Origin: Paraflavitalea sp. CAU 1676
GTDB taxonomy: Bacteria > Bacteroidota > Bacteroidia > Chitinophagales > Chitinophagaceae
Direction of reading: 5' to 3'
Length of the DNA: 64,000 nucleotides
Assembly (NCBI RefSeq): GCF_029223285.1
Contig: NZ_JARHUJ010000001.1
Span: 1,054,001 to 1,118,000 of the forward strand
Part shown: piece after piece, positions 14,726-32,022 of the stretch
Layout of the letters: every line of letters starts with the position of its first letter
Position numbering within the stretch: the first letter of the stretch is position 1
Translations under genes and position numbers: made by a program
Notes under the pieces: generated by a model
Databases searched by the model: none
What the model was told of the DNA's origin: nothing
What the model saw: the letters and a program-made list of their open reading frames with translations, nothing else

Positions 14726-16882
14726 CTATGAGATCTTGCTCCAGGCCGTTTTGCCCTGTAACGACTGAAGGTATTCCTTCAGCACCCCGTTTTCGGGTGC
14801 ACTGAGTTCGGGATCATATTCGGCTATCTTCTCTGCCACTTCTCTTGCTGCCTCGAGCCACTGCCGGTCCTGTACGATATTGGCCAGTTTGAAATTCAAC
14901 ATGCCGCTTTGCCGGGTTCCTTCAATATCGCCTGGCCCACGCAATTCTAAGTCTTTTTCCGCCACTTTGAAACCATCGGTGGTGTCGCACATCGTCTTGA
15001 TCCGTTCGCGCGCGTCATTGTTGAGTTTCGAGCCTGTTAATAATATGCAAAAACTCTTTTCGGCGCCCCTGCCAACGCGTCCGCGCAGCTGGTGTAATTG
15101 CGACAGGCCGAATTTCTCGGCATTTTCGATCACCATAACGCTCGCATTCGGCACATCAACACCCACTTCGATCACGGTGGTAGCGACCAGGATTTGAGTG
15201 TCGTTGTTCTTAAAACGTTGCATGTTGGTTTCCCGTATGTCGTTGGTTTGCCTTCCATGCACCATACTCATCCAGTACTTCGGTTCGGGAAAATAAGCCT
15301 TGACATTTTCGTATCCCTTCATCAGGTTCTCGTAATCGAGCTTTTCCGATTCCTCAATGAGGGGAAATACGATGTAGGCCTGCCGTCCCTGTGCAATTTC
15401 TGCCTTGATAAATCCCATCACCTGGCTGCGTGCCGTGTCATACCGATGTACGGTCAAAATGGGTTTTCGGTTGGGAGGCAGTTCGTCCATGACACTGTAA
15501 TCCAGGTCGCCGTAGGCAGTCATGGCCAGGGTGCGGGGGATGGGCGTGGCGGTCATGACGAGCATATGGGGCGGCACGGGGGCCTTGGCCCACAATTTGG
15601 CCCGCTGGGCCACGCCAAACCGGTGCTGTTCGTCGACGATGGCGATGCCGATATTCTTGAATTTGACAGTGTCTTCCAGGAGGGCATGGGTACCCACAAT
15701 GAGCTGTATTTCGCCTTCTTCCAATTGCTTCAATATCTGCCGCCTTTCGGCCGCTTTGGTATTGCCGGTGAGGATGCGGATGTTGACGGGCAGGTCTTTC
15801 AGCAAGCGGGTGAGGCCGGCAAAATGCTGGCGGGCCAGGATCTCGGTAGGGGCCATGAGGCAGCTTTGGTAACCGTTGTCGGCAGCCAGCAGCATCACGA
15901 GCAGGGCTACGATGGTTTTACCGCTTCCTACATCACCCTGCAGCAGGCGGTTCATCTGCCGGCCGCTGCCGGTATCCTTCCTGATCTCCTTGATCACCCT
16001 TTTTTGGGCACCGGTGAGCTCGAAAGGGAGGTATTTGTCGTAGAAGGTATTGAAGATCTCGCCCACCTGGCCAAAGATGACACCCCTCGAATAGCGGTGG
16101 CGCCTCGATTTCACGAGGTTCATCCGCAATTGGGCAATAAAGAACTCCTCGAATTTGAGGCGGTTCATAGCTTGTTGCCAGGCTTCGTTGGAAGGGGGAA
16201 AGTGGATATGGCTGAGGGCCCGGTAGCGGGGCACCAGTTGTAATTGTTTGATGACGTAATTGGGCAGGTTCTCGGGCAGTTCCTTTTCGGTGAAATGCAG
16301 GAACAGGGCCTGCGTTAGTTTAGCGATCTGCCTGGCCCCTAATCCCCTGGCTTTCAGCTTTTCGGTGGTGGAGTAGACCGGCTCCAGGAAATTACGTGCC
16401 GAAGGTTCTTCACTCAGTGATTCAATTTCGGGGTGGGTGAGTTGGGGGGTACCCTGGAAAAAACTCACTTTTCCAAACACCTGGTAGGATTGGCCAACCG
16501 ATAACATTTTCTGGATCCAGGTGATGCCCTGAAACCAGGTAAGCTCTACGGTGCCCGAGCTGTCGCGCAATTCGGCCACCAGCCGTTTGCTCCTTTTTTC
16601 GCCAATGATGCCCACACTGGTAACGCGGCCGGCGATCTGGATAAAATCGGTCATGGGACTGATATCCCGGATGAGGCTCACCTTGGTTTTGTCGATATGC
16701 CGGTAGGGAAAATGCTCCAGGAGGTCCTTGAACGTATAGATTCCCAGCTCTTTCTGCAAAAGCTCGGCCCGTTGGGGGCCTACCCCCTTCAGGTATTCGA
16801 TCGGACTGGCCAATATGTGTGTGCCCCTGCTGCTGATAAAAAAAACTTTGCCGCAAATGTAAGTGACGGGGCTGAATTTCAC
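14726..16882 (-). CDS. recG: ATP-dependent DNA helicase RecG
   Basis: Branched-DNA helicase that remodels stalled replication forks and Holliday junctions. 718 residues: wedge/OB domain at about 27-230 (SPIEYLKGVGPQRAELL), then helicase lobes with Walker A GDVGSGKT (316-323), the RecG form of motif II DEQHRFG (417-423), MTATPIPRTLAMTAYGDLD, ATTVIEVGVDVPNA and the arginine-finger block QLRGRVGRG. The ATG at 16882 is 7 bases after the stop of the upstream gene, suggesting coupling. About 23 residues precede the conserved start, so an internal TTG before ASPIEYL is an alternative. The conserved motifs are complete. Confidence 0.95.
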   Translation of the reverse strand: MKFSPVTYICGKVFFISSRGTHILASPIEYLKGVGPQRAELLQKELGIYTFKDLLEHFPYRHIDKTKVSLIRDISPMTDFIQIAGRVTSVGIIGEKRSKRLVAELRDSSGTVELTWFQGITWIQKMLSVGQSYQVFGKVSFFQGTPQLTHPEIESLSEEPSARNFLEPVYSTTEKLKARGLGARQIAKLTQALFLHFTEKELPENLPNYVIKQLQLVPRYRALSHIHFPPSNEAWQQAMNRLKFEEFFIAQLRMNLVKSRRHRYSRGVIFGQVGEIFNTFYDKYLPFELTGAQKRVIKEIRKDTGSGRQMNRLLQGDVGSGKTIVALLVMLLAADNGYQSCLMAPTEILARQHFAGLTRLLKDLPVNIRILTGNTKAAERRQILKQLEEGEIQLIVGTHALLEDTVKFKNIGIAIVDEQHRFGVAQRAKLWAKAPVPPHMLVMTATPIPRTLAMTAYGDLDYSVMDELPPNRKPILTVHRYDTARSQVMGFIKAEIAQGRQAYIVFPLIEESEKLDYENLMKGYENVKAYFPEPKYWMSMVHGRQTNDIRETNMQRFKNNDTQILVATTVIEVGVDVPNASVMVIENAEKFGLSQLHQLRGRVGRGAEKSFCILLTGSKLNNDARERIKTMCDTTDGFKVAEKDLELRGPGDIEGTRQSGMLNFKLANIVQDRQWLEAAREVAEKIAEYDPELSAPENGVLKEYLQSLQGKTAWSKIS

Positions 16883-16889
16883 GGTATTC

Positions 16890-18341
16890 TCAACTTCCCG
16901 ACGCCGGTTTGGGCGCAGGGCGGGGAGCAGGTCGCGATGGCTGACTGGTGCCGCCCGCGGGCCGCGTAGCCGGTCGCGTGGATGGCTGCGCTGGCTTCAC
17001 TGTTGGTCGGGTACCGGGCTGCGTAGGCCGGGTAGTTGGCTGTGTGGGTCTTGTAGACGGATTGGTTGGCCGTGTTGAAGGATTCGTGGGCCGGGTAGAA
17101 GGATTGGTAGGTCTTGTTGACGGATTTGTAGGCAGGGTACCCGGGTTGGTGGGCCTGGTAGGAATGGTGGGGCGAATGACCGGTCGGGTATTATCGCCAG
17201 GATTGGTGCCGGGCGCCGGCTTTACGCCAGGGCGGGTGACTGGATCGGTAGGCCGTATCACCGGCCGCGTGACGCCGGGAGGGGTATTGTCGCCCGGATT
17301 GATAACACCGGGTCGCGTGTTGCCACCGGGATTGGTGGGCCTGGTAATGGGGCGGGTGGTGCCGCCGGGCCGGGCTGGCCGCGTGATCTCGGGCCTGCCG
17401 CCCTTATCGAATACCGGCATTTTGTTGTTGAAGGTTGGTGCTTTCGGATTGTCGCGCCGGAAGTTGTTCATACCCGTCTGCGCCATATCGGGGCGGCTGT
17501 ACGTGCGGTTGAAATCGCCCCGCGTGATATGTACGTGTACGATCGGTGCCCGTCGGCGCCAGCCACCGGCTCCATAATAGTGGTTGTGCCAACCCGGGAA
17601 GCGGTAATAATTCCAGCGACGGTAGTGGCCGAAATAATAGAAGTCCCAATAATAGTGATAGGTATAATACTGGTGCCAGTAGATGGGCCTCCAGGGACGC
17701 CAGTAAGGCGGATAGTAACTCCAGTACCAGGGCGAGCGCCACATCACATAAGCAGGTTGAAACATGAACATGACTATGGGCCAGGTGGCTACCTGGTAGG
17801 TGGTGGTGTATTGTACGGTGGCTTGCTGTGCAGCGGCCGGCGTAACGGTCGTGGTGGTGGTTACCTGCGCCTGACCTGAATAACCAGGATTGGGTGTTTC
17901 GCCGGGTTTGTTGTTGGCCGAGTAATTGGGCTCAACGATATAATCTTTGCCATAAAGATCTTCATCACCCACGACCTGTATTTTGGCTTCACCGTCGCGA
18001 TCTTTTTCTACAATGATCACGGCTACGTTTTGCACTTCATCTTTATCGACGGCAACCTTCAGTACAATGTTGTGGATATCGCCCTGTACATCATCTTCCA
18101 CCTGGATATAATCTATCTGATCATCGTTATTAAGATCAAGGTTGTTGATGTTGGCAGAATCACCATTCAATGCCCGCTCAAAGCCTTCAAGCGTGGGCGA
18201 TTCCTGGAACAGCTTCAATACTGCATACAGGTTGAGGTTATCGCCCGGCAGGTCGAGCCGCTCCTGTTCCGGATTCTGCGCATGGGCGGTGGTGCTTCCC
18301 AGTAATAGTAGCGCCATCAGGACAGACAGCAGGTATTTCAT
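16890..18341 (-). CDS. Secreted Trp/Tyr-rich protein with Pro-rich heptad tail
   Basis: 483 residues, no named family recognised. A signal peptide (1-21, ending AHA) is followed by a folded acidic domain (about 30-150) with an EF-hand-like LDLNNDDQIDYIQ stretch. A Thr/Val/Gln linker comes next, then an aromatic block (about 190-255: WRSPWYWSYYPPYWRPW and on) with many Trp, Tyr and His. The last ~90 residues are low-complexity repeats of the type STRPTNP, ending in Arg/Lys/Pro. The tail resembles wall- or polysaccharide-contacting spacers; the aromatic block resembles those of some Bacteroidota envelope proteins. Function is unknown. It is 7 bases upstream of recG and may share its transcript. 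Confidence 0.75.
   Translation of the reverse strand: MKYLLSVLMALLLLGSTTAHAQNPEQERLDLPGDNLNLYAVLKLFQESPTLEGFERALNGDSANINNLDLNNDDQIDYIQVEDDVQGDIHNIVLKVAVDKDEVQNVAVIIVEKDRDGEAKIQVVGDEDLYGKDYIVEPNYSANNKPGETPNPGYSGQAQVTTTTTVTPAAAQQATVQYTTTYQVATWPIVMFMFQPAYVMWRSPWYWSYYPPYWRPWRPIYWHQYYTYHYYWDFYYFGHYRRWNYYRFPGWHNHYYGAGGWRRRAPIVHVHITRGDFNRTYSRPDMAQTGMNNFRRDNPKAPTFNNKMPVFDKGGRPEITRPARPGGTTRPITRPTNPGGNTRPGVINPGDNTPPGVTRPVIRPTDPVTRPGVKPAPGTNPGDNTRPVIRPTIPTRPTNPGTLPTNPSTRPTNPSTRPTNPSTRPTNPSTRPTQPTTRPTQPGTRPTVKPAQPSTRPATRPAGGTSQPSRPAPRPAPKPASGS
16960..17165 (-). repeat. Heptad-encoding tandem repeat (STRPTNP type)
   Basis: About seven consecutive 21-bp units encode Ser/Gly/Thr-Thr-Arg-Pro-Thr-Asn/Gln-Pro. 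Codons differ between units, so the protein repeat is conserved better than the DNA. Such tracts change copy number easily. Confidence 0.65.
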
Positions 18342-18491
18342 TGAATTAGTTTAATTAAATATACGAAATGAATCAACAGCCGGCTTGGTAGAATTTGCCC
18401 AGAAATGCAAATTTGACAATGCCCTGGATACAATGCTCATCCCGGTGCAATACCAGTCATGGCCGATGTTGTTTAGCAAGTTGTGGAGTAC

Positions 18492-19043
18492 TCAGTCTGG
18501 CCTCATGAGGGTTGCACTCCAGTCAAATTCTGTAAAGGTTTTGAAGTATTCTTTCCGGAATGCCGCAGTACGCCTTTGCCAGGTGCGCAATTCCAATTCG
18601 TCGAACGGGCGTGCTGTTTTTTTCCTGAGTGCCCGCAACAGTCGTGTTGACCCGTTGCGTGCGCCACTGCTTTTGATAAGCTTTGTTGCTGCGCCATCCT
18701 GTGGAGCCGGTTGTTTACCCGCATACCGCCGGAGCAGGTATTCAATGACCTCTTCTTGCTGCCACTGGTATTTAAGCCAGGTCATTGCTTCGCCGGTGAT
18801 CTTACGGTATAGTTTATGTTTTTTTCGATGGAGCGGTACCTGCGCATAGACGATCGATCCGATAGGAGATGCTGTGGCCATCAGATTGGCATATTGCATG
18901 GTTTTTCGGAATGCGGGATCGGTTTTCACCCTTTTTGCATCGAGCGAACTGCGGGTGCGTAAATAGTACTCGTCATACATTTGATAAATGGTCACTGGGC
19001 CAACAGTGCCGATGAACGGAGGCCTGGAGGTAAGACGTGCCAT
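18492..19043 (-). CDS. Conserved Bacteroidota protein of unknown function
   Basis: 183 residues, basic. The N-terminus (MARLTSRPPFIGTVGPVTIYQMYDEYYLRTRSSLDAKRVK, abbreviated) follows the pattern of a widespread Bacteroidota family that starts MARQKG-like, then GTIGDxxFYK, YLxRxKxxxD and DPxFxRTRE. Here DPAFRKTMQYANLMATAS fits that block. These proteins are often found near repeats or mobile DNA; their function is unknown to me. No signal peptide. The C-terminal half is Arg/Lys-rich. It is a single gene beside a repeat-rich spacer. Confidence 0.65.
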   Translation of the reverse strand: MARLTSRPPFIGTVGPVTIYQMYDEYYLRTRSSLDAKRVKTDPAFRKTMQYANLMATASPIGSIVYAQVPLHRKKHKLYRKITGEAMTWLKYQWQQEEVIEYLLRRYAGKQPAPQDGAATKLIKSSGARNGSTRLLRALRKKTARPFDELELRTWQRRTAAFRKEYFKTFTEFDWSATLMRPD

Positions 19044-19106
19044 GATGTTGATTTTACTTAAAGCTACGGTGTATCCTGGCTTTTGGATCGGTCATGGTTA
19101 CAAAGT

Positions 19107-19146
19107 GTGGCATTCCGTGGCATTCAGTGGCATTCCGTGGCATTTT
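19107..19146. repeat. Four tandem decamers GTGGCATTCC
   Basis: Units read GTGGCATTCC, GTGGCATTCA, GTGGCATTCC and GTGGCATTTT, exactly 10 bases apart. The spacing equals about one helical turn, so a protein could bind the same face; it may also simply be a slippage-prone microsatellite. Confidence 0.7.
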
Positions 19147-19297
19147 AACATTTTCCTGCAACCGAAATGTTGAACATGTATATTCCAGGCGCTGGCTGTA
19201 TGAGCTTTGGTGGCCCCTTATCGGGGCCTATTCCTGGATGGGTCTCGGTCGTACCTGGCTATTTCCTGCGACGGCCTTTGAATGCACCTGGGCAGGG

Positions 19298-19367
19298 CCT
19301 TGTTCGTACCTTGTTCGTAGTTAAAGCGCATTTTCCTAAGCGACTACCGAACAAATACCGAACAAGG
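19298..19367. repeat. Inverted repeat built of direct repeats
   Basis: The left arm (19298-19321) contains CTTGTTCGTA twice. The right arm (19343-19367) contains TACCGAACAA twice and is a near-perfect reverse complement of the left. The spacer is about 21 bases. The arrangement looks like paired protein-binding sites or a foldback element. Confidence 0.6.
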
Positions 19368-19415
19368 CAATAGTTTGGTAATAGCGAAAACAAGCCTGAC
19401 GCTGACTAAAATGCC

Positions 19416-19444
19416 AAAAAAAATCGCCAGGCGACTGCCTGGCG
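19416..19444 (-). terminator. Rho-independent terminator of the membrane glycosyltransferase-like gene
   Basis: On the minus strand CGCCAGGC, a 4-base loop and GCCTGGCG form an 8-bp stem, followed by eight T residues after one intervening base. It lies about 30 bases past the stop at 19473. Confidence 0.85.
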
Positions 19445-19472
19445 ACCAATATTTGAAATTTACTGCGCTAAT

Positions 19473-21095
19473 TTATGGCTTTACGTACACTTCCACCCAG
19501 GCCGTAGAGCTGGGTTTGCGGGGGGCTGTAAACACATCCACCTTCTTGTAATTCGCCTGCAGGGCTTCGCGCACTTTGAAGGGGTAGAAATTGTTGAGGT
19601 AAGGGATGTATTCAAACAACACCAGGTCGTAGTGCTTGTTCTGAATGCGGTTCACGAACATATCCGTTTCCTTGTCAAACATGCCCACGCCTTTATGGAA
19701 CCAGAGCGGGTACTCGGGGCCCGTTTCCAGGGCAAATGGCACTTCGGCTGCGAGGGGCGTCAGCTCCGACATATTCAGCACTTTCAGGTTCTTGCCATTC
19801 TTCACTAAATCCATATTCATGAGTCGTTCGATTCCATCCACGGTCGGGTTGGGCATCATAATGCGCTCAAACGATTTTAATTTGGGTACGCGCCATTGAT
19901 CGAGGGGTATGTCGGTAGAATCCTGGTGGATCATAAACGTATTCCGGTTCACCACATTGGCATACACCAGTCCTTCGTGGGTCATAGTGGTGTAAGCCTC
20001 GCCGCCGCTTTTCAGGACAAAGCGGTCGATGTAGCGCCAGTACACCTGGCTCCACCAGAGCATGACCACGGCGGCTAACACGATCACCGGTTTCCAGCTA
20101 TCGAACCGGATAGGCAGCAGTTGGGAGAACAGGTATATGATAAAGGCGAAAGCAAAGCTGTGGAAAAAGATATTGTTATCGACCGGCACGTAACTGGTTA
20201 CCTGGAAGATGGTAGCCTCGGCCAGGATGCCCAGGGTAAGCAGGGTGAAGATCATTTGCTGCTTGTTGAGCCAGAATTCCTTCCAGTTCTTCACGGCTAC
20301 CATCAGCAGCAACACGATGAGCAGGATATAGAATTTGATCATCTGCGAGGCTCCCAGGAAATCGCCCAGTATCTCACCGATCGACATACGCGAGCTGTGC
20401 GGCGGTTGGCCGTGGTTGAACCAATAGCCGAAGGTGCCGGTTACAGGCAGTATGAGTGCGAGGCCAGTCACGAACACAGAGCCAACGAATACGCCAAGGG
20501 CCAGCCACTGTTTGTGTGCCAGCGCCAGGTAGCCGAGCAGGGCCAGGCAAATGAGCAGGCCGAGGGCGCCGCCATCCTGTTTGGTAAAGAAAGAGCAGAA
20601 TATGAAAAAGCCCGACGCTACCAGCCAGCCATATTTCCCCTTGCTGGTAGAGGTGGAGAAGATGTACTTCATGAGGAAAGCCAGTCCCACCAGTTCGTAC
20701 ATGATCACAGTATTGTTATACCAGGGCCAGTAGTTGAAGAAAGTGTAGGAAAGGCAAAATACGAGTACCGAGGCAAAGCGTATACCGGGTTGTATGCCGA
20801 GGCTTTTGAAGATAGAGCGGAAAGCCAGCCCCGACAGGATATTGATGAAAGCCTGTGCTTTCACGAGGGTGATCATCTGGGGGCCGAAGATCTTGAAGAA
20901 CATGGCCGGTATTTCCCAGTACATATAGCCTACGGGCATGCCGAAGTCCTTGAAAGGCGTTTGCCCCAGGTAGAGGCGATAGGCGCCTTCCCACGACAAA
21001 AAGATATTGATGCGGTAGGGCAGGGTGGCAAAAATGGGCACCAGGGCAATGATCACAATGATCAGGATCTCTGCGGTGGATAATATTCGTTTCAT
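19473..21095 (-). CDS. Polytopic membrane protein, GT-C glycosyltransferase-like
   Basis: 540 residues from the ATG at 21095; the frame is open to 21200, but the upstream part is not membrane-like, and MKRILSTAEILIIVIIALVP is a good first helix. Around nine or ten hydrophobic helices occupy about 5-375, followed by a soluble C-terminal domain (about 380-540). The first loop has SWEGAYRLYLGQTPFKDFG, the acidic loop layout of lipid-phosphosugar-dependent GT-C enzymes. It is divergent from the ubiA-dprE-like operon, so it may use or export the polyprenyl-phosphate pentose made there. Donor and acceptor cannot be read from sequence. Confidence 0.65.
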   Translation of the reverse strand: MKRILSTAEILIIVIIALVPIFATLPYRINIFLSWEGAYRLYLGQTPFKDFGMPVGYMYWEIPAMFFKIFGPQMITLVKAQAFINILSGLAFRSIFKSLGIQPGIRFASVLVFCLSYTFFNYWPWYNNTVIMYELVGLAFLMKYIFSTSTSKGKYGWLVASGFFIFCSFFTKQDGGALGLLICLALLGYLALAHKQWLALGVFVGSVFVTGLALILPVTGTFGYWFNHGQPPHSSRMSIGEILGDFLGASQMIKFYILLIVLLLMVAVKNWKEFWLNKQQMIFTLLTLGILAEATIFQVTSYVPVDNNIFFHSFAFAFIIYLFSQLLPIRFDSWKPVIVLAAVVMLWWSQVYWRYIDRFVLKSGGEAYTTMTHEGLVYANVVNRNTFMIHQDSTDIPLDQWRVPKLKSFERIMMPNPTVDGIERLMNMDLVKNGKNLKVLNMSELTPLAAEVPFALETGPEYPLWFHKGVGMFDKETDMFVNRIQNKHYDLVLFEYIPYLNNFYPFKVREALQANYKKVDVFTAPRKPSSTAWVEVYVKP

Positions 21096-21171
21096 GTCGG
21101 TTGAATATAATGAAGCGTGATCGGAGGCCGGTTTAAGGTTATGCGAAAGTAGCGGTTGAAAAAATAATGTG

Positions 21172-21189
21172 CAAAGTAATTGTACTTTG
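21172..21189. promoter_or_regulatory. Interrupted palindrome in the divergent spacer
   Basis: CAAAGTA-ATTG-TACTTTG lies in the 250-base spacer between the two divergent transcription units of the arabinose-type cluster. Each strand shows a TACTTTG that resembles a shortened Bacteroidota -7 box. It is a candidate operator or paired promoter; no -33 box is clear. Confidence 0.35.
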
Positions 21190-21345
21190 TTTTGTGTCAT
21201 AATGACTTGTTTACCTGATACTAAGGGCGATTGGGTAAATTTTGGCCCCTAAAATGAATTAATCAATAATTCATATGTATGGAATCGCCCGGGGGCTTGC
21301 ATCACAGCTTTTTGTGCTGTATCTTGTGCCCGGAATAGACGATAA

Positions 21346-22248
21346 ATGCGGGATTACATTAAATTATTACGACCGAAAGACTGGGCAAAAAACCTTTTCC
21401 TGTTCATCCCCTCTTTCTTTGCAGGCAAACTGTTTGACCCCCTGGAATTCAAAACGCAATTTGGGATGCTGCTCGGCGGCTTCCTGGCGTTTAGCTTCCT
21501 TGCCAGTAGTATCTACATTCTTAACGATTACAGGGACATCGAGGACGATCGCAAGCATCCTAAAAAATGCAAGCGGCCATTGGCTTCGGGCAAAGTGAAG
21601 AAAGGAATTGGTTTAACGATCTGCATCCTGCTGGCTGTGGCCGGCTTGGGTATCAGTGCGTTGCTGGATCCATCGCTCAAGTTTCTCTTCATGACGGGCA
21701 TTTATTATGGCCTGAACCTTGGCTATTGCTTTGGGCTGAAGAATATCTCCATTCTCGACATCCTGATCGTATCGGCAGGCTTCGTGCTGCGGGTGAAAGG
21801 CGGTGCGGTGCTGGGCGATATCCATACCACCGAATGGCTGATCATCATGACCTTCCTGCTGGCCTTGTTCATGGCCATCGCCAAGCGTCGCGACGATGTG
21901 ATGCTGAAAGTGGCTACCGGCACCGATATGCGGAAATCGATCAAAGGTTATAGCCTCGAATTCCTGAATACCCTGCTGGGGCTTTTTTGCGCGATCCTGA
22001 TCGTGGCCTATATTAATTATACTGTATCCGGCGCCCTGTACAAAGATTTTGGGCACCGTTTATACTATACCTCTTTATTCGTTATTGCCGGCATCATGCG
22101 TTACCTGCAGATCACCTTTGTCATGAACCAGGCCGGCTCTCCAACCGAAATCCTTTACAAAGACCGTTTTATTCAGCTTACCCTCGTTCTATGGATGGCC
22201 AGTTTTTATTTTATCCTTTATATGAAGGATATCACTGTGTTCAAATAA
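21346..22248 (+). CDS. UbiA-family decaprenyl-phosphate phosphoribosyltransferase-like protein
   Basis: Predicted to transfer phosphoribose from PRPP to a polyprenyl phosphate, the first step towards polyprenyl-phosphoryl-arabinose (known for mycobacterial Rv3806c). 300 residues with about nine helices. The signature NDYRDIEDDRKHPKK (60-74) holds the Asp motif for Mg-diphosphate, followed by KRPLASGKV, typical of this subfamily. The early RPKDWAKNLFLFIP stretch is characteristic as well. First gene of a plus-strand operon; dprE1-like starts 15 bases downstream. Annotation as a quinone prenyltransferase is less likely given the neighbours. Confidence 0.87.
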   Translation: MRDYIKLLRPKDWAKNLFLFIPSFFAGKLFDPLEFKTQFGMLLGGFLAFSFLASSIYILNDYRDIEDDRKHPKKCKRPLASGKVKKGIGLTICILLAVAGLGISALLDPSLKFLFMTGIYYGLNLGYCFGLKNISILDILIVSAGFVLRVKGGAVLGDIHTTEWLIIMTFLLALFMAIAKRRDDVMLKVATGTDMRKSIKGYSLEFLNTLLGLFCAILIVAYINYTVSGALYKDFGHRLYYTSLFVIAGIMRYLQITFVMNQAGSPTEILYKDRFIQLTLVLWMASFYFILYMKDITVFK

Positions 22249-22263
22249 AAAAGGTCTATTCGC

Positions 22264-23598
22264 ATGAAAAAAGAAATTGCCAACTGGGGAAATTACCCCG
22301 TGATGGAAAGTAATGAACAGCAGTTCAGCTATGATGACCAGTTGCAGCAAATCGTGAAGGAGGCTTCCCTTTTTATTCCCCGGGGCAATGGCCGTTGTTA
22401 TGGAGATGCTTCTTTGGGTGTGCAAACGATCTCTACGCTCAAATACGACAAGATACTCTCTTTTGATACGCAGGCCGGCGTTTTCGAATGCCAGAGCGGC
22501 CTGATGCTCGATAAGATACTGGAAGTGATCGTGCCGAAAGGCTGGTTTCTGCCGGTAACACCGGGCACCAAATTCATCACCGTGGGCGGTGCCGTAGGCA
22601 GCGATGTACATGGTAAGAACCACCACGTAGATGGTTCCTTTTCGAACCATATTGTAGATATGGATGTGGTGTTGTCGACGGGGCGCACCATTACCTGTTC
22701 TCCCACCCAGCATGCCGACCTTTTTGATGCCACCTGCGGCGGCATGGGTTTGACCGGGCTGATCAGCCGGGTTAAGTTCCGCCTCAAGAAAATTGAAACT
22801 TCCTACATCAAACAAAAGCAGATCAAGGCCGATAACCTCGAGCATATCCTGCAGTTGTTTGACGAATACAAGCATTATACATACTCCGTGGCCTGGATCG
22901 ACTGCCTCAAGAAAGGCAAAGGGTTCGGCCGCAGCATCATGATCCTGGGTGAGCACGCGAAAGTAAGCGACCTCAACGCCCAACAGGCGAAAGAGCCGCT
23001 AAAGCTCCCCAAGAAGAAGCAGATCACTTTTCCTTTCAACCTGCCCTCCTGGGTGCTCAATACCTTTACGGTAAAGGCATTCAATTTCCTGTATTACGGC
23101 AAGAACTTCAAGCGGGAGATCAACAATGTGGTGGGCTATGAGCCTTTTTATTATCCGCTGGATGCCATTTTACACTGGAACCGCGGCTATGGTAAAAAAG
23201 GATTCATCCAATACCAGTTTGTGGTGCCCATGCATGCCAAGCAGGGATTGATCGAGATACTGCAACGCATCAGCGATAAGGGCATTGGTTCTTTCCTGGC
23301 GGTGTTGAAAGTATTTGGTGAGCAGAACAGCCTGATCTCTTTTCCCGAGGAAGGCTATACGCTGGCGCTGGACATTCCGGTGCGTGCAGGCCTTTTCGAG
23401 TTCCTCGATGAGCTGGACCAGATCGTGCTGCAACATGGCGGCCGCCTGTACATGAGCAAGGATGCCCGTATGAAGCCCGGCGTGCTGGAGGCCGGCTATC
23501 CAAGACTGGATGAATTTAAAGCTATCGTAAAGAAATACAACCCGGACGGTAAGATACGCTCTACGCAATCGGACCGGTTATTACTGACCAACAATTAA
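22264..23598 (+). CDS. DprE1-like FAD oxidase (polyprenyl-phosphoryl-ribose 2'-oxidase)
   Basis: Predicted to oxidise the 2'-hydroxyl of polyprenyl-phosphoryl-ribose, the first half of epimerisation to arabinose. 444 residues of the VAO-type FAD family: RGNGRCYGDASLG (40-52) and PGTKFITVGGAVGSDVHGKN (100-119) with the following HH. Lys397 (MSKDAR) matches the catalytic-site Lys of mycobacterial DprE1. The position of the benzothiazinone-target Cys387 there appears to be Ala366 here (YTLALDIP). It sits 13 bases before the DprE2-like gene. The set of three pathway genes in order strongly supports the assignment. Confidence 0.88.
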   Translation: MKKEIANWGNYPVMESNEQQFSYDDQLQQIVKEASLFIPRGNGRCYGDASLGVQTISTLKYDKILSFDTQAGVFECQSGLMLDKILEVIVPKGWFLPVTPGTKFITVGGAVGSDVHGKNHHVDGSFSNHIVDMDVVLSTGRTITCSPTQHADLFDATCGGMGLTGLISRVKFRLKKIETSYIKQKQIKADNLEHILQLFDEYKHYTYSVAWIDCLKKGKGFGRSIMILGEHAKVSDLNAQQAKEPLKLPKKKQITFPFNLPSWVLNTFTVKAFNFLYYGKNFKREINNVVGYEPFYYPLDAILHWNRGYGKKGFIQYQFVVPMHAKQGLIEILQRISDKGIGSFLAVLKVFGEQNSLISFPEEGYTLALDIPVRAGLFEFLDELDQIVLQHGGRLYMSKDARMKPGVLEAGYPRLDEFKAIVKKYNPDGKIRSTQSDRLLLTNN

Positions 23599-23611
23599 TT
23601 GATCGTATCGA

Positions 23612-24343
23612 ATGTCTACCGTTTTGATTTTGGGAGCAGCTTCGGATATGGCTGTGGCCATTGCGAAAAAATATGCCTCGCAGGGACATGCCGTTCAACT
23701 GGCTGCCCGTAATGTGCAAAGGCTGAAAGCGCTTGAATCGGATATCGCCATCAGGTACAACACAACCTGCACGGCACATGAATTCGATGCGCTGAACTTT
23801 GCCTCGCACCAGGCTTTCTTCGATGCCCTGTCTGTGAAGCCGGATATTACCATTTGTGTTTTCGGCTACCTGGGCGATAATGAAGTGGCACGCGGCAACT
23901 GGGCCGAAAGTGAAAGGATCATTCATACCAACTATACCGGCGCCGTATCTATCCTAAACGTGGTGAGCAATTACTACGCTGCGCAAAAGAAAGGCGTGAT
24001 TGCTGGCATCAGCTCGGTAGCAGGCGAACGTGGCCGGCAGAGCAACTATATTTATGGCAGTGCCAAAGCTGGTTTTACAGCTTACTTGTCGGGGCTTCGC
24101 AACCGGATGTTCCATGAGCAGGTCCATGTAGTGAGTGTGCAGCCTGGTTTTGTGTATACGCGTATGACGGAAAACCTCACGCTGCCTCCATTATTGACAG
24201 CCCAGCCCGAGCTGGTGGCCGACACGGTGTTCAAGGCGGTGGCCAACAAAAAGAACGTGGTGTATGTAAAGTGGTTCTGGCGCTGGATCATGCTGATCAT
24301 CAAATCGATTCCCGAGTTTATGTTTAAAAAGCTGAAACTTTGA
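23612..24343 (+). CDS. DprE2-like short-chain reductase
   Basis: Predicted to reduce the 2-keto intermediate to polyprenyl-phosphoryl-arabinose with NAD(P)H, completing the DprE1 reaction. 243 residues, classical SDR: nucleotide loop LILGAASDMAVAIA (4-17), Ser134/Ser135 (ISSVAG) and Tyr148-x3-Lys152 (YGSAK). The C-terminus (FWRWIMLIIKSIPEFMFKKL) is hydrophobic and basic, as expected for membrane association with a lipid-linked substrate. It overlaps the HAD gene by 4 bases. Confidence 0.85.
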   Translation: MSTVLILGAASDMAVAIAKKYASQGHAVQLAARNVQRLKALESDIAIRYNTTCTAHEFDALNFASHQAFFDALSVKPDITICVFGYLGDNEVARGNWAESERIIHTNYTGAVSILNVVSNYYAAQKKGVIAGISSVAGERGRQSNYIYGSAKAGFTAYLSGLRNRMFHEQVHVVSVQPGFVYTRMTENLTLPPLLTAQPELVADTVFKAVANKKNVVYVKWFWRWIMLIIKSIPEFMFKKLKL

Positions 24344-24933
24344 GCAGGCCTATTGCATTCTTCGACTTCGACGGTACCATCACTACCAAAGATACCCTGC
24401 TGGAGATCATCAAATACCGGCATGGGAAAGCTAAGTTCTACCTCGGCTTTTTGTTGCACAGCCCCTGGCTGGTGTTGATGAAGCTGGGCTTGGTGTCGAA
24501 TCAATCGACCAAAGAAAAAGTGCTGAAGCTGTTCTTTGGTAAAATGACAACGGAGCAGTTCCGTGTTTTCTGTGAGCAGTTTGCTGCGGAAAAGATACCT
24601 GCCTTGATTCGCCCCAAAGCGTTGGTGGAAATTGATAAACTGAAGAAAGCGGGCGCCGAGGTGGTTATCGTTTCTGCTTCGCCGGAGAACTGGCTGCAGC
24701 CCTGGTGTGCTACGCTCAACCTGTCACTGATGGGTACGCAGCTGGAAGTGAAGAATGATAAGATCACCGGTAAGATCAAGGGCATTAATTGCTATGGAGA
24801 AGAGAAGGTAAGGCGTATCAAGGCGGCTTACGATCTTACTGCCTACGGCGATGTATATTGTTATGGTGATACCAGTGGCGACAAGCCGATGCTGGCATTG
24901 GCCAGGCATGGATTTTATCAGCCCTTCCGGTAA
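24340..24933 (+). CDS. HAD-IB family phosphatase
   Basis: 197 residues starting at a TTG inside the stop of the preceding gene (TTGA overlap). Motif I is FFDFDGTIT with nucleophile Asp9 and Asp11; motif II is near IVSASPE; motif III is GDTSGDKPML; the end HGFYQPFR is typical of HAD-IB. Translational coupling with the DprE2-like gene suggests a role in the same pathway. The missing step is dephosphorylation of polyprenyl-phosphoryl-5-phosphoribose, done by a PAP2-type protein in mycobacteria. That this HAD protein fills it is inference. Confidence 0.8.
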   Translation: MSRPIAFFDFDGTITTKDTLLEIIKYRHGKAKFYLGFLLHSPWLVLMKLGLVSNQSTKEKVLKLFFGKMTTEQFRVFCEQFAAEKIPALIRPKALVEIDKLKKAGAEVVIVSASPENWLQPWCATLNLSLMGTQLEVKNDKITGKIKGINCYGEEKVRRIKAAYDLTAYGDVYCYGDTSGDKPMLALARHGFYQPFR

Positions 24934-25064
24934 GTTGTTGCACGTGGGTAAGAATCGCCCGGTAGCCGGGTTACTTTTTAATTTTGCAGTTCCTTGTTTC
25001 ATTAAGTTCCCTCCTTTGTCCTGTTCCGAAAGCCAATCCTTCTGAAACTTCTTAACAACTGAAT

Positions 25065-26204
25065 ATGTTTAAACCCTTATTGGCTGTATGGAAAGGGCCA
25101 TGGTACAGGAAACTGGTACTGATCGTGAGCTTGCTGGTGGCTTCGCTGTATCCCATTCACCGCAACTTCGATCATGGTTTGGGTTTCTGGCAATACCAGC
25201 GTCACCTCGATTTCATGCGCGGCGAATCGCCTTTCTTCAATCCCTGGCAATACCGGGTGCTTTGTCCGTATGTGGTAGAAGGCGGTAAATGGGCTTACGA
25301 ACATACGGTCGATAAAGTGGTGCCACTGGAGAAGATCAAGCAGTTTGATCCGGTGAAGGCGGCAGGTTCTACGGTTGAACAGGAAACCCTGGTGAATCGA
25401 AAGGACGCGATTATCTACCTCATCGTGTTTGCGGCTTTCCGGTTTTTGCTGAATGTGATGATCTACCTCTTTGCGTTTTCCATCTTCGCTTATTATACGC
25501 GCAACCAATGGCTCAATGCGCTGGGTATTTTTCTTGTCTCGCTCGCGATGGGGAACGCCGTGTTCAACAGCGACCTCTCGCTCAATACTTATTTCGATCT
25601 CATGCTATTCCTGTGGATGGCTTGCGTGGTATTGTATAAGGCGAGCGGCTGGTGGATTGTACCGATCACCATTTTGGGTATCCTTAACCGGGAAACGGCC
25701 CTGATGATCCCCGGCCTTTATTTTCTGGCGGCGGCTGTTGACCCGGCCAACGAAAAGAAGTTGTTTGGAATTCCTTTCCTGCGCAATCCTCCGCGTACTA
25801 CCTGGATAGTTACTATAGTTTCTCTCATTGCTTTCGTCGCTATATTCATGGCCATCCGGGCACACTATGGCTATCGCCCGCCAGGCCTGGCTATAGAACA
25901 CAACCTGCCATTCGGGTTACCGGTTCTCAAGTTCAATCTTACCGGTAAATATGGTGTGCAGGCTTTTATCGAGATATATGGGGTACTGGGCTTTTTGCCG
26001 CTGGCCTGGTTCTTCTGCTTCCGGTATTTACCGGTGCTGCTGCGCGCCTGGTCGCTCATCTTATTGCCGCTGTGGTTATGCATTCACTTTGTATCGACGC
26101 AGGCAGGCGAAAGCCGGTATTACCTGGTTACGCTGATCCTGGTGCTGATACCGATGGTGTTTGAAATGATCAAGCGGTCGGACAAAAAACTGGCGACTGA
26201 GTAA
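25065..26204 (+). CDS. Polytopic membrane protein, possible GT-C transferase
   Basis: 379 residues with about eight or nine hydrophobic helices. The first periplasmic loop reads HRNFDHGLGFWQYQRHLDF and NPWQYRVLCPYVVEG; the N-P-W-x-Y-R-V-L pattern occurs in bacterial membrane proteins of the GT-C type. A loop LNRETALMIPGLY is also typical. It follows the HAD gene by 131 bases on the same strand, ahead of a strong terminator, so it is probably the last gene of the operon. It may be the transferase using the polyprenyl-phosphoryl pentose; no direct evidence. Confidence 0.6.
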   Translation: MFKPLLAVWKGPWYRKLVLIVSLLVASLYPIHRNFDHGLGFWQYQRHLDFMRGESPFFNPWQYRVLCPYVVEGGKWAYEHTVDKVVPLEKIKQFDPVKAAGSTVEQETLVNRKDAIIYLIVFAAFRFLLNVMIYLFAFSIFAYYTRNQWLNALGIFLVSLAMGNAVFNSDLSLNTYFDLMLFLWMACVVLYKASGWWIVPITILGILNRETALMIPGLYFLAAAVDPANEKKLFGIPFLRNPPRTTWIVTIVSLIAFVAIFMAIRAHYGYRPPGLAIEHNLPFGLPVLKFNLTGKYGVQAFIEIYGVLGFLPLAWFFCFRYLPVLLRAWSLILLPLWLCIHFVSTQAGESRYYLVTLILVLIPMVFEMIKRSDKKLATE

Positions 26205-26302
26205 GGGGCAAAAACAGGCCAGGCCGCACGAAGCGGCCCGGCGAGTAGAATCAATGTTCATGGTTTTATTCGTCTAAAAAGCTCTTGATGATATTTTGTT
26301 TA

Positions 26303-26338
26303 AGGCCGGGGAAGCTATAAGCTTTCCTGGCTTTTTTT
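26303..26338 (+). terminator. Terminator of the arabinose-type operon
   Basis: A 14-bp stem with three G-U pairs (AGGCCGGGGAAGCT with AGCTTTCCTGGCTT) has a 3-base loop and runs into seven T residues. A second GC hairpin (26222-26238, GGCCGC/GCGGCC) stands closer to the stop. Confidence 0.8.
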
Positions 26339-26374
26339 ATGCAGGTTGAGGCGCGATGATAAAGGCGCACTGTG

Positions 26375-28285
26375 TTATTGCTTCACGATCTTCCGGATCT
26401 CACGCAGCTTGCCGCCAATCGTTACTTCCAACAGGTAGATGCCCGGGTTCATCGTTTTGGCGGGCAGTTTGATGATAAGCTGCTCCTCCTGCTTGTTCCA
26501 TTGTTGCTGCTGCACGATCCTTCCTTCCAGGCTGATCCATTTTATTTGCAGTATGCCTTTGTTTGAATCGTTTATTTCGATCGTTAGTTGATCCTTTACC
26601 GGGTTGGGATAATAGGCGAGCCGGCTGATAAGACGATTGCCTGTGATCTTCACCAGCGATGAGTAGTGGGTGGTTTTACCCTGGCTGTTCACCAGCTTCA
26701 ACCGGTAATACTGCGTTGCGGGGTGTTCGGTAGCATCAATGAAACTATAGTTGTTCGCATACAGGCTGTTTCCTGCCCCCTTCACGGTGCCAATGGTGGT
26801 GAACTGCTGGCCATCGCTGCTGCGCTCTATCTCGAAATGGTCGTTGTCATCTTCCTGGGCGGTTGACCAGGTGAGGGTAGTAGTGCCCTTTTGGTTGTTG
26901 CCTTTGAACCAGCTGAGTTGGGTGGGCATGGTCATCGCTGAAGAGTTGACCGTTACGATATCGGTGCTCTTGGCGCCACCTGCATCGGTGGTTTCGAGTT
27001 GGAACTGATAGGTGCCTATCAACAGGTTGGTAATATCGGGATTGGCCACTGTGCTGTTTGAGAAAGTATACATGGCGGGGCCGCTCACTTTGGTCCACTT
27101 ATAAGTAAGGGTGGCGCCATCGGGATCGTAAGAGTCGCTGCCGTGTAAGGTAGCGGCCGATACATCGGTAGTTTGATCGGCGCCTGCTTCCGTTACAGGA
27201 GCGATGTTGCTGGCAGTGCCGGCCACTACGGTGATGTTCACGGTCTTGGTTACGTAGTCGGCGCGATCGTCCACTACTTTCAGCTCGAAGGTATAAGTGC
27301 CGGCAGTGGTGAGTCCGTTGATGCGTGTCAGTCCGTCGGTAGATACCGCTGTTACGATGCTACTGGTAACGGGCCCGGCCGTTTGTTTCCAGATAAACCG
27401 TTCTATATAACCATCGGCATCGGTTGAGCGGGCGCCGCTCAGGTAAGCAAAGCCTGTTCCTGTAGAGATCGTGAGGTTATTGCCTGTGTTGGCGATGGGA
27501 CGCCTGTTGACCGGTTTACTTTTATCTTTCCCCAGCAGCCATTCGTATACATTGGGATTGTGGCTGCTATAGTTGGTACTGAAGGCCCGGTCCCACGAGT
27601 TGTGACCACCGGTGGGGTAAATGTCCAGGTAGGCTTTTTCGGCGGCGCCGCAATTGTTGATGCCGCCTACGATGGCGCTGGTACAATTGGCCTGCGTAGT
27701 GCCGTCGTTTTGTGAATGCGTGGCCCACACCGGTAAATTGGCCCTGGCGATATTGCAATAATCGTTGGTTTGGCAGGTGGGGGCAGTTGGGGCGATGGCG
27801 TTGAGTTGTTTCGCATTGGCTATCGACGCGCCGGGATAATCCCAGGTGCCGCCGCCGCCCAGGCTAAGGCCTATCAATGATATACGGTTGGTATCTACAT
27901 TCAAATTGGCTTTAGCGTATTTGATCATTTCTTCTACATAGAAATTGTACCACCAGCCGTAGGTGTCGGCAAGTTGGGGCGACAGTACCAGGAAAGTTTG
28001 CCATTTGCCATTCCAGAAGAAGCGCATGTTATGACCATTCTTAATAAGTTTGGGTACGCTCTCCTGGGTTACGTTCTGTAATTGTGTGGTGCCATTGCCT
28101 TTTTGTCCGGTACCATGTAAGAAGATGATGAGTGGATACTTAGGACCGGTGGCATCGTAATCGGTGGGGGTGTACTGTAAGAATCCAATCCTTTGACCAT
28201 TGGCTGCTGTGAGGCTTTTTTCTACCTGTTGTGCGCTTACGATCAGGCACACGAGGAGGCTCACCATGAGTAACGTGGTTTTCAT
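26375..28285 (-). CDS. Secreted esterase/depolymerase-like hydrolase with T9SS type A sorting domain
   Basis: 636 residues. Signal peptide (1-18, LIVSAQ). Alpha/beta-hydrolase domain to about 255 with FLHGTG (55-60), nucleophile Ser141 in GLSLGG, Asp194 (SQNDGT) and His228 (TGGHNSW) as likely triad. Two PKD/Ig-like modules follow (about 265-355 and 360-450; ARSTDADGYIERF and SDSYDPDGATLTYKW). The end (AYYPNPVKDQLTIEI ... NPGIYLLEVTIGG) is a type A T9SS sorting domain. It probably cleaves ester bonds of a polysaccharide or polyester outside the cell. It is monocistronic. Confidence 0.87.
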   Translation of the reverse strand: MKTTLLMVSLLVCLIVSAQQVEKSLTAANGQRIGFLQYTPTDYDATGPKYPLIIFLHGTGQKGNGTTQLQNVTQESVPKLIKNGHNMRFFWNGKWQTFLVLSPQLADTYGWWYNFYVEEMIKYAKANLNVDTNRISLIGLSLGGGGTWDYPGASIANAKQLNAIAPTAPTCQTNDYCNIARANLPVWATHSQNDGTTQANCTSAIVGGINNCGAAEKAYLDIYPTGGHNSWDRAFSTNYSSHNPNVYEWLLGKDKSKPVNRRPIANTGNNLTISTGTGFAYLSGARSTDADGYIERFIWKQTAGPVTSSIVTAVSTDGLTRINGLTTAGTYTFELKVVDDRADYVTKTVNITVVAGTASNIAPVTEAGADQTTDVSAATLHGSDSYDPDGATLTYKWTKVSGPAMYTFSNSTVANPDITNLLIGTYQFQLETTDAGGAKSTDIVTVNSSAMTMPTQLSWFKGNNQKGTTTLTWSTAQEDDNDHFEIERSSDGQQFTTIGTVKGAGNSLYANNYSFIDATEHPATQYYRLKLVNSQGKTTHYSSLVKITGNRLISRLAYYPNPVKDQLTIEINDSNKGILQIKWISLEGRIVQQQQWNKQEEQLIIKLPAKTMNPGIYLLEVTIGGKLREIRKIVKQ

Positions 28286-28585
28286 AGAGGTTTGATTTTA
28301 GGGTCAACAAACTAGGGGCTGGTGATGGCATTCCATGCTGATCGTTACAGGCAGCCCCGGTACGGATGATTGGGTTCGTGCTCCAAAAAATACAATTACT
28401 ATACCATTTGATCCATTGGCATGTTATGAATGCAGAAAAGCGGCAAAATCGAGTGGTTTTGCAAGGGGCTGGTAAAATCCCCATGAAAATGCTGGTAGAA
28501 TCCTGGTCCGGAAAATAACATCGGCTGCCAACGTATTAAGTTTTTTGGCCAATTTAATTTGGTGGCCATCTATCTTTGCGCAAAC
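28286..28585. other. Divergent spacer between esterase and MFS gene
   Basis: 300 bases without a gene. It carries the promoter of the MFS gene (28544-28578). On the esterase side a 7-bp inverted repeat (GGGGCTG near 28313, CAGCCCC near 28353) could fold in the esterase leader. No known RNA family is recognised. Confidence 0.5.
28544..28578 (+). promoter_or_regulatory. Bacteroidota promoter of the MFS gene
   Basis: TTTG at 28544-28547 and TATCTTTG at 28571-28578 match the -33 and -7 elements of Bacteroidota sigma-70 promoters with 23 bases between them. The expected start of transcription falls at or within a few bases of the ATG at 28586, so the mRNA may be leaderless. Confidence 0.65.
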
Positions 28586-29722
28586 ATGAGCAGCTATAAA
28601 CCCTTAACACATCGTATTGCAGCTTCCTGCTTCTTTTTTGTATGCGGGTTTATTTTTGCCACCTGGGCTTCCCGGATCCCCGCCATTAAAGATCAGTTCC
28701 ACCTCAACGAGGCCGAACTGGGAGCAGTGCTATTCATGTTGCCCCTGGGTGCGTTGGTGGCTTTGCCGCTGGCTGGATGGGCTGTATCGGTATTGGGCAG
28801 CCGGCTCATCAATTACATCGCCGCGATCACTTATGCTATCGTATTGTTGTTGATCGGTTATAGCCATTCAGTCGCTTTGCTCTCGGCTTCCTTGTTCTTC
28901 TTTGGCTTTTGCGGTAATGTGTTGAATATTTCCATGAATACGCAGGCCCTGCTGGTGCAGGAAGAAATGTATGATAAATCCTTGCTCTCTTCGTTTCATG
29001 GTTTGTGGAGCATCGGTGCGATGATCGGGGCCGCGCTGGGCGGTTATACGATGAAGACAGGTGCTACCACGCGCGGACATTTTTTGATCGTGGCGGGTAT
29101 CGTGCTGGTCCTTTCCACGATGGCCGTGTTTTATACCATCCGAAAAGGAAAACCTGCGGGCGAGCAAAAGATCTTTGCCTGGCCCGATAAAACTTTGTGG
29201 CTGCTGGGCGCCATTTGTTTCTGCTGTGCGATCTGTGAAGGAGCGATGGCCGACTGGAGTTCTTTGTTCTACAAACAGGTGCTGAACGATCTGAAGCGCG
29301 TAAGCACCACGGGGTATATGGTATTTGCCTGCATGATGGCGCTGGGCCGGCTGATCGGTGATGTGGTGATCGGCAGGCTGAGTTATAAAGGCGCCTTGGT
29401 GCTGGATGGTATCCTGATCACCATCGGCCTGATCGTTGCCACTACGCTTGCTTTCCCGGTGGCGGTGATCATCGGATTTGGATTGATCGGTTTTGGCGTG
29501 GCTACCGTGATCCCGATTGTATATAGTTTGAGCGCCAAAACCACCACGATGAGTACGAGTGCCGCGTTGGCGGCTGTGAGTACAGTAGGCTTCTCCGGAT
29601 TTTTGGTAGGGCCGCCCATGATCGGTTTCATTGCTCATCAAACAGGGTTGCGTTATGCGCTTATGTTATTGTCCCTCCTGGGCATCGTGATCTTGTGGCT
29701 TTGCCGCAAGGTGAAGAACTGA
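28586..29722 (+). CDS. MFS transporter
   Basis: 378 residues from the ATG at 28586 (the frame opens at 28559, but the promoter overlaps that part). Twelve hydrophobic helices are visible. Loop 2-3 has ASRIPAIKDQFHLNEAELG, and the conserved ALPLAG-type helix follows. It resembles the YbjJ/fucose-permease-like branch of the major facilitator superfamily, which moves sugars or exports small molecules by proton coupling. Substrate unknown. It is a single gene divergent from the esterase, so uptake of a released product is conceivable. Confidence 0.85.
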   Translation: MSSYKPLTHRIAASCFFFVCGFIFATWASRIPAIKDQFHLNEAELGAVLFMLPLGALVALPLAGWAVSVLGSRLINYIAAITYAIVLLLIGYSHSVALLSASLFFFGFCGNVLNISMNTQALLVQEEMYDKSLLSSFHGLWSIGAMIGAALGGYTMKTGATTRGHFLIVAGIVLVLSTMAVFYTIRKGKPAGEQKIFAWPDKTLWLLGAICFCCAICEGAMADWSSLFYKQVLNDLKRVSTTGYMVFACMMALGRLIGDVVIGRLSYKGALVLDGILITIGLIVATTLAFPVAVIIGFGLIGFGVATVIPIVYSLSAKTTTMSTSAALAAVSTVGFSGFLVGPPMIGFIAHQTGLRYALMLLSLLGIVILWLCRKVKN

Positions 29723-29900
29723 TCGTTGCGAAAATGCCCGTTTCCCCGGCCGCTTATGCCGCATAGTTGGGTGTCTTTATGCACGATTTTGTGGTGCTTT
29801 TTAACGACGTTTTAATATCTGTTATAGCACTGTTAAGGATGTTCCACTACTGAACCATGGCACTTGTTTTTTCGTCTACATAAGCGAAAACAATAACGCA

Positions 29901-30536: not shown

Positions 30537-30562
30537 TTCCTGCACGTAAAAACGATTAAACA

Positions 30563-31183: not shown

Positions 31184-31216
31184 AAGATTTTTCTGGTGCT
31201 GAAAGTTTGATGAGAA

Positions 31217-31250
31217 AGGCCCTGCACTTTGTTGCGGGGCCTGGTTTTTT
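31217..31250 (+). terminator. Rho-independent terminator
   Basis: AGGCCCTGCA pairs with TGCGGGGCCT (one G-U pair) across a 6-base loop, and GG plus six T residues follow. It ends the DUF4136/outer-membrane protein unit. Confidence 0.85.
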
Positions 31251-31270
31251 GTATACAAGTTGTAATGCGA

Positions 31271-31822: not shown

Positions 31823-32022
31823 ATTCCTAAATTAAGACTTATATACTGCTGGCAAAATGATTGTTTAAAAATTGGGATTCGTTACACAAATCTTCCTAAG
31901 TTAGCGTTTTGGCGGATGGCGTTGTCGTTTCCGGAGAGGAGCGGGGCCGTCATCCTTGATAAAACTTAGTTAAATACATTTTGCCCGATCCCTTACCACT
32001 GGCGGTTCTGTTGCCTGTTTAG

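Follow-up and report, generated by a model that had tools for sequence, protein, structure and literature searches.

A predicted lipid-linked arabinofuranose pathway and an associated GT-C-like membrane protein family in Bacteroidota

A 64,000-nucleotide stretch of the Paraflavitalea sp. CAU 1676 genome (contig NZ_JARHUJ010000001.1, positions 1,054,001 to 1,118,000; hereafter the window, whose own numbering is used throughout) carries a four-gene operon that likely makes a polyprenyl-phosphate-linked pentofuranose used outside the inner membrane, with arabinofuranose then probably being transferred by P0006, the product of a divergent gene. We regard it as highly likely that the sugar of this donor is arabinofuranose. 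The pathway is well supported by sequence relationships and gene linkage, and would place a mycobacterial drug-target pathway in many Bacteroidota, relatives of its oxidase DprE1 being present in 59 of 296 genomes. It would also give a role to a predicted GT-C family, previously without assignment, that co-occurs almost perfectly with the pathway in Chitinophagaceae, and connect pentofuranoses carried on lipids with type IX secretion and with genes for polysaccharides.

The four-gene core

All six open reading frames (ORFs) that a first-pass annotation had described in this region were recovered. Four of them form a core on the forward strand (21346-24933) and, as that annotation had noted, the UbiA, oxidase, reductase and HAD phosphatase genes follow each other closely, with intergenic gaps of 15, 13 and -4 bp; the TTG start of the phosphatase gene overlaps the stop codon of the reductase gene. 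The UbiA-DprE1-DprE2-HAD order is found repeatedly across Bacteroidota loci.

The first protein, P0001 (21346-22248), matches PF01040 in Pfam, and its best NCBIfam model is PRK12324, decaprenyl-phosphate phosphoribosyltransferase (E 4.6e-61, 206.8 bits). Scores are lower with PRK08238 (UbiA family prenyltransferase, 167.8 bits), PRK12884 (47.8), heme O synthase (42.7) and 4-hydroxybenzoate octaprenyltransferase (30.5), the first three of these and PRK12324 itself all scoring below their cut-offs. At E≤0.001 the only solved relatives are the phosphoribosyltransferase entries 8j8j (E 4.9e-41) and 8j8k. The NDxxDxxxD pattern of cytoplasmic loop II (N60, D61, D64 and D68) is present in 100 of 100 aligned rows, some rows in this and the following counts being one genome present in two collections; the same N, D, D and D residues are described for the phosphoribosyltransferases termed PPPRS in passages of PMC11127046. 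P0001 is very probably a phosphoribosyltransferase, predicted to move ribose-5-phosphate from phosphoribosyl pyrophosphate to polyprenyl phosphate.

P0002 (22264-23598), a flavin adenine dinucleotide (FAD) oxidase of superfamily PF01565, is matched best by NF053785 (DprE1; E 2.8e-130, 435.5 bits, model positions 4-448 of 449). Against the PDB, DprE1 (4aut) scores 294.5 bits (E 1.3e-86) and the best FAD oxidase that is not a DprE1 scores 38.5 bits (E 5.7e-9). The DVHGKNHH motif occupies residues 114-121 and the lysine of MSKDAR is K399; K399 and a QYQ motif are found in all 103 aligned rows, and H116 and K118 in 102 of them. The nearest named relative found is from Paraflavitalea pollutisoli (94% identity). 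Residue A368 aligns with the cysteine of the mycobacterial DprE1 CVDFP stretch, the site of benzothiazinone bonding, and is alanine in 103 of 103 rows.

P0001 and P0002 both fall in large superfamilies, so that in principle P0001 could be a prenyltransferase of the quinone or heme type and P0002 an unrelated FAD enzyme, grouped by accident. The far lower scores of those subfamilies and the recurrence of the four-gene order across Bacteroidota refute this at the level of sequence, and we give it practically no weight. The first-pass annotation had called the two proteins a phosphoribosyltransferase of the UbiA type and a DprE1-like oxidase; a better score with quinone or heme prenyltransferases and a placement of the oxidase outside the DprE1 clade were both sought, and neither was found.

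The best NCBIfam model for P0003 (23612-24343) is NF005489, an unnamed short-chain reductase family (E 2e-102, 342 bits, cut-off 267), followed by NF053786 (DprE2; E 6.1e-59, 199.7 bits). Its nearest solved relative is DprE2 (21gq_C; E 1.1e-32), with 116.4 bits against 54.7 for the next chain, in keeping with the DprE2-like character proposed for it earlier. Y148 and K152 of the YxxxK motif are present in 93 of 93 rows and the glycine motif is also kept. P0004 (24340-24933) scores 130.7 bits with the HAD-IB phosphatase model TIGR01490, above the cut-off of 98.3, and D9 and D11 of its DxDGT motif are each found in 88 of 89 rows.

From these relationships we infer the reactions, their stereochemistry and the lipid carrier. 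P0004 would take the 5-phosphate off polyprenyl-phosphate-ribose-5-phosphate, P0002 would oxidise C2, and P0003 would reduce the product with inversion to give polyprenyl-phosphate-D-arabinofuranose. A flippase encoded elsewhere would carry this donor across the membrane. In the periplasm P0006 would then hand the arabinofuranose on to an acceptor, for which a Wzx/Wzy-type polysaccharide is the likeliest candidate. The same three enzyme kinds, with the same catalytic residues, and a GT-C transferase with an Aft-like fold make up the mycobacterial Rv3806c/DprE1/DprE2 and Emb/Aft pathway. The host here is Gram-negative, however, no arabinogalactan is expected, P0006 has no sequence match to solved Aft or Emb enzymes, and a HAD-IB phosphatase stands in place of Rv3807c, which passages of PMC11127046 describe as unrelated to HAD phosphatases. 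The three-component system of Citrobacter youngae O1/O2, as set out in parts of the same paper, is likewise composed of a UbiA-type PPPRS, a HAD-family phosphatase and a periplasmic GT-C transferase. It differs in that the phosphatase here is a separate gene, a DprE1/DprE2 pair replaces the ORF13 epimerase, and no MATE flippase was recognised in the Paraflavitalea cassette.

P0006, a candidate arabinofuranosyltransferase

P0006 is a 540-residue polytopic protein encoded on the reverse strand (19473-21095), divergently from the core. The ORF itself extends to 21200, but a later methionine at 21095 lies near the start of most aligned relatives. Neither Pfam (up to E 1) nor NCBIfam gave a match, and beyond these scans no search was aimed at GT136. 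A profile of the P0006 family found no convincing sequence match in the PDB (best E 0.36). Pfam matches of its relatives to GldL_N (12 of 29, best E 9.9e-4) and TgpA_N (five, best E 6.2e-5) were taken as membrane-helix noise.

An AlphaFold2 model built from 29 sequences (29 of 31 rows, the near-copies L064 and L085 being omitted) has a predicted TM-score of 0.83. Its top Foldseek matches in the PDB are AftD (6wby, E 7.5e-5), AftA (8if8, E 2e-4) and ArnT (5f15, E 3.7e-4), with the protein O-mannosyltransferase Pmt4 at rank 4 and PglB at rank 7. Query-length TM-scores for the first four are 0.45-0.48, so that the likeness to GT-C enzymes is one of fold only. All 29 sequences have Glu36 and Asp50, which follow the first long helix (residues 2-22) in a loop that probably lies on the outer side of the membrane. 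A GT-C transferase fold is supported by this predicted structure, and P0006 is the best candidate for, and quite probably is, the arabinofuranosyltransferase that would use the lipid-linked donor.

The phylogenetic distribution of P0006 follows that of the pathway. Among 117 Chitinophagaceae genomes searched with profiles, UbiA (E≤1e-20) was found in 36, DprE1 (E≤1e-40) in 32 and P0006 (E≤1e-8) in 30, and presence is nested: all 30 P0006 genomes lie within the 32 with DprE1, and all 32 within the 36 with UbiA. P0006 thus occurs in 30 of 32 DprE1-positive and none of 85 DprE1-negative genomes (Fisher P 7e-26, with genomes here and below treated as independent and kinship ignored). In the wider sample of 296 Bacteroidota genomes, with thresholds of E≤1e-60 for DprE1 and E≤1e-15 for the P0006 profile, P0006 was found in seven genomes, all of them among the 59 with DprE1 (P 9e-6). 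The P0006 gene keeps its linkage to the cassette while its position varies. It is divergent in most of the examined loci that have it, part of the operon itself in Thermoflavifilum (L048 and L089, which are one genome, and L090), and downstream in the same orientation in L074, L088 and L093; in another family, three genomes have it no more than 3.5 kb from DprE1.

At Mucilaginibacter loci where no P0006 was seen, a 558-residue protein is encoded convergently to the HAD gene (L075:12724-14400, reverse strand, and three relatives). It has no Pfam or NCBIfam match and, by eye, a membrane-like start; it may be the transferase at those loci.

Natural variants of the pathway

Two kinds of variant in the Chitinophagaceae serve as natural experiments: in one the operon would depend on a DprE1 acting in trans, and in the other UbiA and HAD occur in regions that lack both epimerase genes. 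The first kind occurs in six genomes (G028, G029, G077, G084, G103 and G106), in which UbiA, DprE2 and HAD accompany P0006 and at most ~200 bp separates UbiA from DprE2, leaving no room for DprE1. Each of the six has a single DprE1 (E≤1e-40) elsewhere in the genome, of 43-45% identity. A DprE1 of this identity is present in nine sample genomes, the window genome included, and the chance of all six falling within those nine of the 36 is 4e-5 if genomes are assumed independent. The second DprE1-like gene of the window genome (C23:467765-469078, 44% identity) has no UbiA in the stretch examined (L003, L034).

In a DprE1 tree of 41 author-selected rows of the 103, six of the nine trans-type proteins fall into a group, with a support of 100/100, that also takes in three rows of the named collection and an unlabelled one; G028, G077 and G106 were classed as trans-type by identity alone. 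The trans type is not one exact labelled clade, there being two label changes and the unlabelled L132 inside it. Louvain clustering, whose subdivisions of DprE1, DprE2, UbiA and HAD do not correspond to clades, was set aside in favour of the tree. The nine aligned trans-type rows keep the motifs tested, with HGKAHH in place of HGKNHH and GRSYAD in two. We infer that the trans-type DprE1 serves the UbiA-DprE2-HAD operon.

The second kind comprises four genomes (G015, G035, G060 and G066) with UbiA but neither DprE1 nor P0006 at the thresholds used. Relatives of P0004 (37-49% identity) stay near UbiA in these four regions, and a search within the regions found no DprE2. Retention of UbiA and HAD where DprE1 and P0006 are missing agrees with a HAD whose substrate is the product of UbiA and a P0006 that requires an epimerised donor. 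These genomes should make ribofuranose donors; a PPPRS, a HAD phosphatase and a GT-C transferase are reported in parts of PMC11127046 as an experimentally demonstrated route to alpha-ribofuranose in Citrobacter.

P0005 (25065-26204, forward strand), the second polytopic membrane protein bordering the core, has neither a Pfam match nor a PDB profile match. The first-pass annotation had proposed GT-C-like proteins on both sides of the core; the predicted fold of P0006 bears this out for one of them, and P0005, whose model from three sequences was unusable (mean predicted local distance difference test score 43.9), stays a putative case. P0005 (E≤1e-8) was found in three of the 117 genomes, all UbiA-positive, and is missing from G085, of the same genus as the window. 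Two of the four UbiA-HAD genomes (G035 and G060) have a relative, on a different contig from UbiA in G035. P0005 may belong to the UbiA-HAD part of the system, and a second GT-C transferase or a transporter is possible. Other cassette neighbours of ~400 residues did not match the P0005 profile.

Neighbouring genes and the acceptor

Adjoining P0005 and convergent with the cassette is a gene (26375-28285, reverse strand) in whose product Pfam recognises an esterase domain, a pair of K319L-like PKD domains and a Por_Secre_tail, the sorting tail of the type IX secretion system (T9SS). Cassette regions were taken for 29 of the 36 UbiA-positive genomes, the window included (all but G025, G030, G076, G081, G107, G109 and G113), and scanned with profiles built from cassette neighbours such as this protein. 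Of the 29, 21 have a K319L-PKD ORF no further than 6.5 kb from the cassette and 20 have a T9SS-tail ORF. The corresponding numbers are none and one at nine control loci around trans-type DprE1 genes, of which the genome sample supplied six and the named collection three. At 77 other named-collection loci, some of them short or from the same genomes as the sample, a K319L-PKD ORF was found in 13 and a T9SS-tail ORF in 22; the 64 loci with no K319L-PKD ORF include Chitinophaga-named and Weeksellaceae loci. Six genomes chosen for having the neighbour contain 6, 2, 3, 3, 2 and 3 such ORFs genome-wide (E≤1e-10), one of them beside the cassette, a density that predicts 0.26 for 29 regions, the genome-wide threshold being stricter than that of the locus scan. 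T9SS-tail ORFs near cassettes lie on the 3' side in 50 of 54 cases, with some genomes counted twice and L090 omitted (its core matches spread over 13 kb). As background, the window genome (G000; 8.84 Mb, 23 contigs) has 108 Por_Secre_tail matches at E≤0.001. Independent PKD-linkage events are fewer than the counts, since related genera share the neighbour by descent. The other domains of these neighbours (esterase, GDSL lipase, CBM6, beta-helix) vary between genera, as do the outer neighbours.

This linkage raises the alternative that P0006 arabinosylates proteins directly, above all the adjoining T9SS-exported PKD-repeat proteins, as TfpW does with Pseudomonas pilin. The enrichment of K319L-PKD ORFs over the control loci, their scarcity elsewhere in the six chosen genomes and the 3' position of the nearby T9SS-tail ORFs all speak for it, as do the matches of the P0006 fold to Pmt4 and PglB. 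TfpW adds arabinofuranose to pilin according to PMC11841053, and that paper and PMC12369383 place it in the pilin gene set of Pseudomonas. Against this, the domains that accompany the PKD repeats vary from one neighbour protein to another, and Chitinophaga loci (L074, L076, L078-L082 and others) have P0006 without a PKD neighbour. Arabinose is listed among the glycoprotein sugars of Cytophaga hutchinsonii, a T9SS organism, in PMC11858162.

Further evidence on the acceptor comes from CP139022.1 (Flammeovirgaceae SG7u.111). When 72,556 plasmid records were searched for relatives of P0006 at E≤1e-5, this plasmid alone gave one (44% identity, annotated as hypothetical); having been found in this way, it is an illustration and not a count. 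This 53.6-kb plasmid, typed as non-mobilizable, consists largely of surface-polysaccharide genes. Its cassette is UbiA-DprE1-SDR (SDR, short-chain reductase), the UbiA relative passing the PRK12324 cut-off (241.9 against 234 bits), and a Wzy_C O-antigen ligase is followed by a GT87-like protein, just below the Pfam cut-off, and the P0006 relative. Also encoded are acyltransferases, glycosyltransferases, a sugar transferase, a flippase, a TolC-family protein and an esterase-like protein of 1617 residues in which six K319L-PKD stretches accompany a Por_Secre_tail. Mainly because of this gene content, in which P0006 follows a ligase and a GT87-like gene in a polysaccharide pathway, we somewhat favour a polysaccharide over a protein as acceptor and consider direct protein arabinosylation unlikely. 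With a polysaccharide acceptor, the T9SS-secreted esterase/PKD protein (26375-28285) would probably act on that glycan, or together with it, at the cell surface. More speculatively, and with comparably low probability, the cassette and P0006, as a new GT-C family, could form a surface system that puts D-arabinofuranose (or ribofuranose where DprE1 and DprE2 are lacking) on T9SS-exported PKD esterase-type proteins or on the glycan by which these are held; the PKD proteins would then be dedicated clients, kept beside the cassette for that reason and travelling with it even on a plasmid. A DprE1-like gene (E≤1e-30) occurs on 64 plasmid records in all, 34 of them from Rhizobium.

Several results weigh against an arabinofuranose pathway ending in P0006. 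Three of the core proteins score below curated equivalog cut-offs: P0001 with PRK12324-type models (206.8 against 234 and 206.4 against 207 bits), P0002 with the DprE1 model (435.5 against 500) and P0003 with the DprE2 model (199.7 against 250). The best six Foldseek matches of P0006 have query-length TM-scores of 0.45-0.52 and root mean square deviations of 8.6-13.8. P0006 is missing from 52 of the 59 DprE1-positive genomes of the phylum sample and was not seen in the Weeksellaceae and Mucilaginibacter stretches examined, so that other transferases must serve outside its range. Among the window neighbours scanned with profiles (14726-33534) there is no polysaccharide gene cluster and no MATE- or GtrA-type flippase, the one transporter being an MFS protein (28559-29722); two GtrA-family proteins are encoded elsewhere in the genome, unlinked to the cassette. 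No HAD protein is annotated on CP139022.1. Polysacc_synt proteins are found near some related cassettes. The low model scores would also suit a DprE1/DprE2-like pair that has drifted in specificity, the donor then being ribofuranose or a different C2/C3 epimer, and so would the related regions that lack the pair and the use of a different epimerase for xylofuranose in Citrobacter, reported in part of PMC11127046. DprE1 and DprE2 are nevertheless by far the nearest solved relatives, the catalytic residues are kept, and passages of that paper report DprE1/DprE2 homologs in candidate arabinofuranose-glycan systems; a donor other than arabinofuranose is improbable.

Lipid-linked pentofuranose donors are already known in Gram-negative bacteria, in the Pseudomonas pilin and Citrobacter-type systems. 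The TfpW system resembles the one described here in its Gram-negative host, UbiA-based arabinofuranose donor and GT-C transferase. It differs in having a type IV pilin as acceptor and, as passages of PMC11127046 have it, a phosphatase of another structural family, whereas the genes linked here are T9SS/PKD and polysaccharide genes. Searches of the open-licence literature found no paper on DprE1 or decaprenylphosphoryl sugars in Bacteroidetes or Chitinophaga, on arabinose in Chitinophaga lipopolysaccharide or O-antigen, or on an arabinofuranosyltransferase together with type IX secretion. Judged by those searches, the form that the system takes in Bacteroidota, the GT-C family that goes with it and the association with T9SS/PKD and polysaccharide genes all appear to be new.

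A 105-residue Weeksellaceae neighbour considered as a flippase was rejected, as by eye it reads as a thioredoxin and its 390-residue partner as cysteine-desulfurase-like; a 153-residue Mucilaginibacter neighbour similarly reads as a nucleotidyltransferase. The remaining window genes scanned between 14726 and 33534 encode RecG, the MFS transporter, a DUF4136 protein, an outer-membrane beta-barrel, an AlgH-like protein, a histidine kinase and two proteins without matches. The protein encoded at 16890-18341 (reverse strand), which has no Pfam match, shows a Trp/Tyr-rich middle and, by eye, a C-terminal Pro/Thr repeat (TRPTNPS-like). Adjoining recG, a large protein (10889-14575, reverse strand) matches TIGR04131, the T9SS type B sorting domain, at its C-terminus (35.1 bits, cut-off 35), and several related loci have this pair of genes alongside the cassette.

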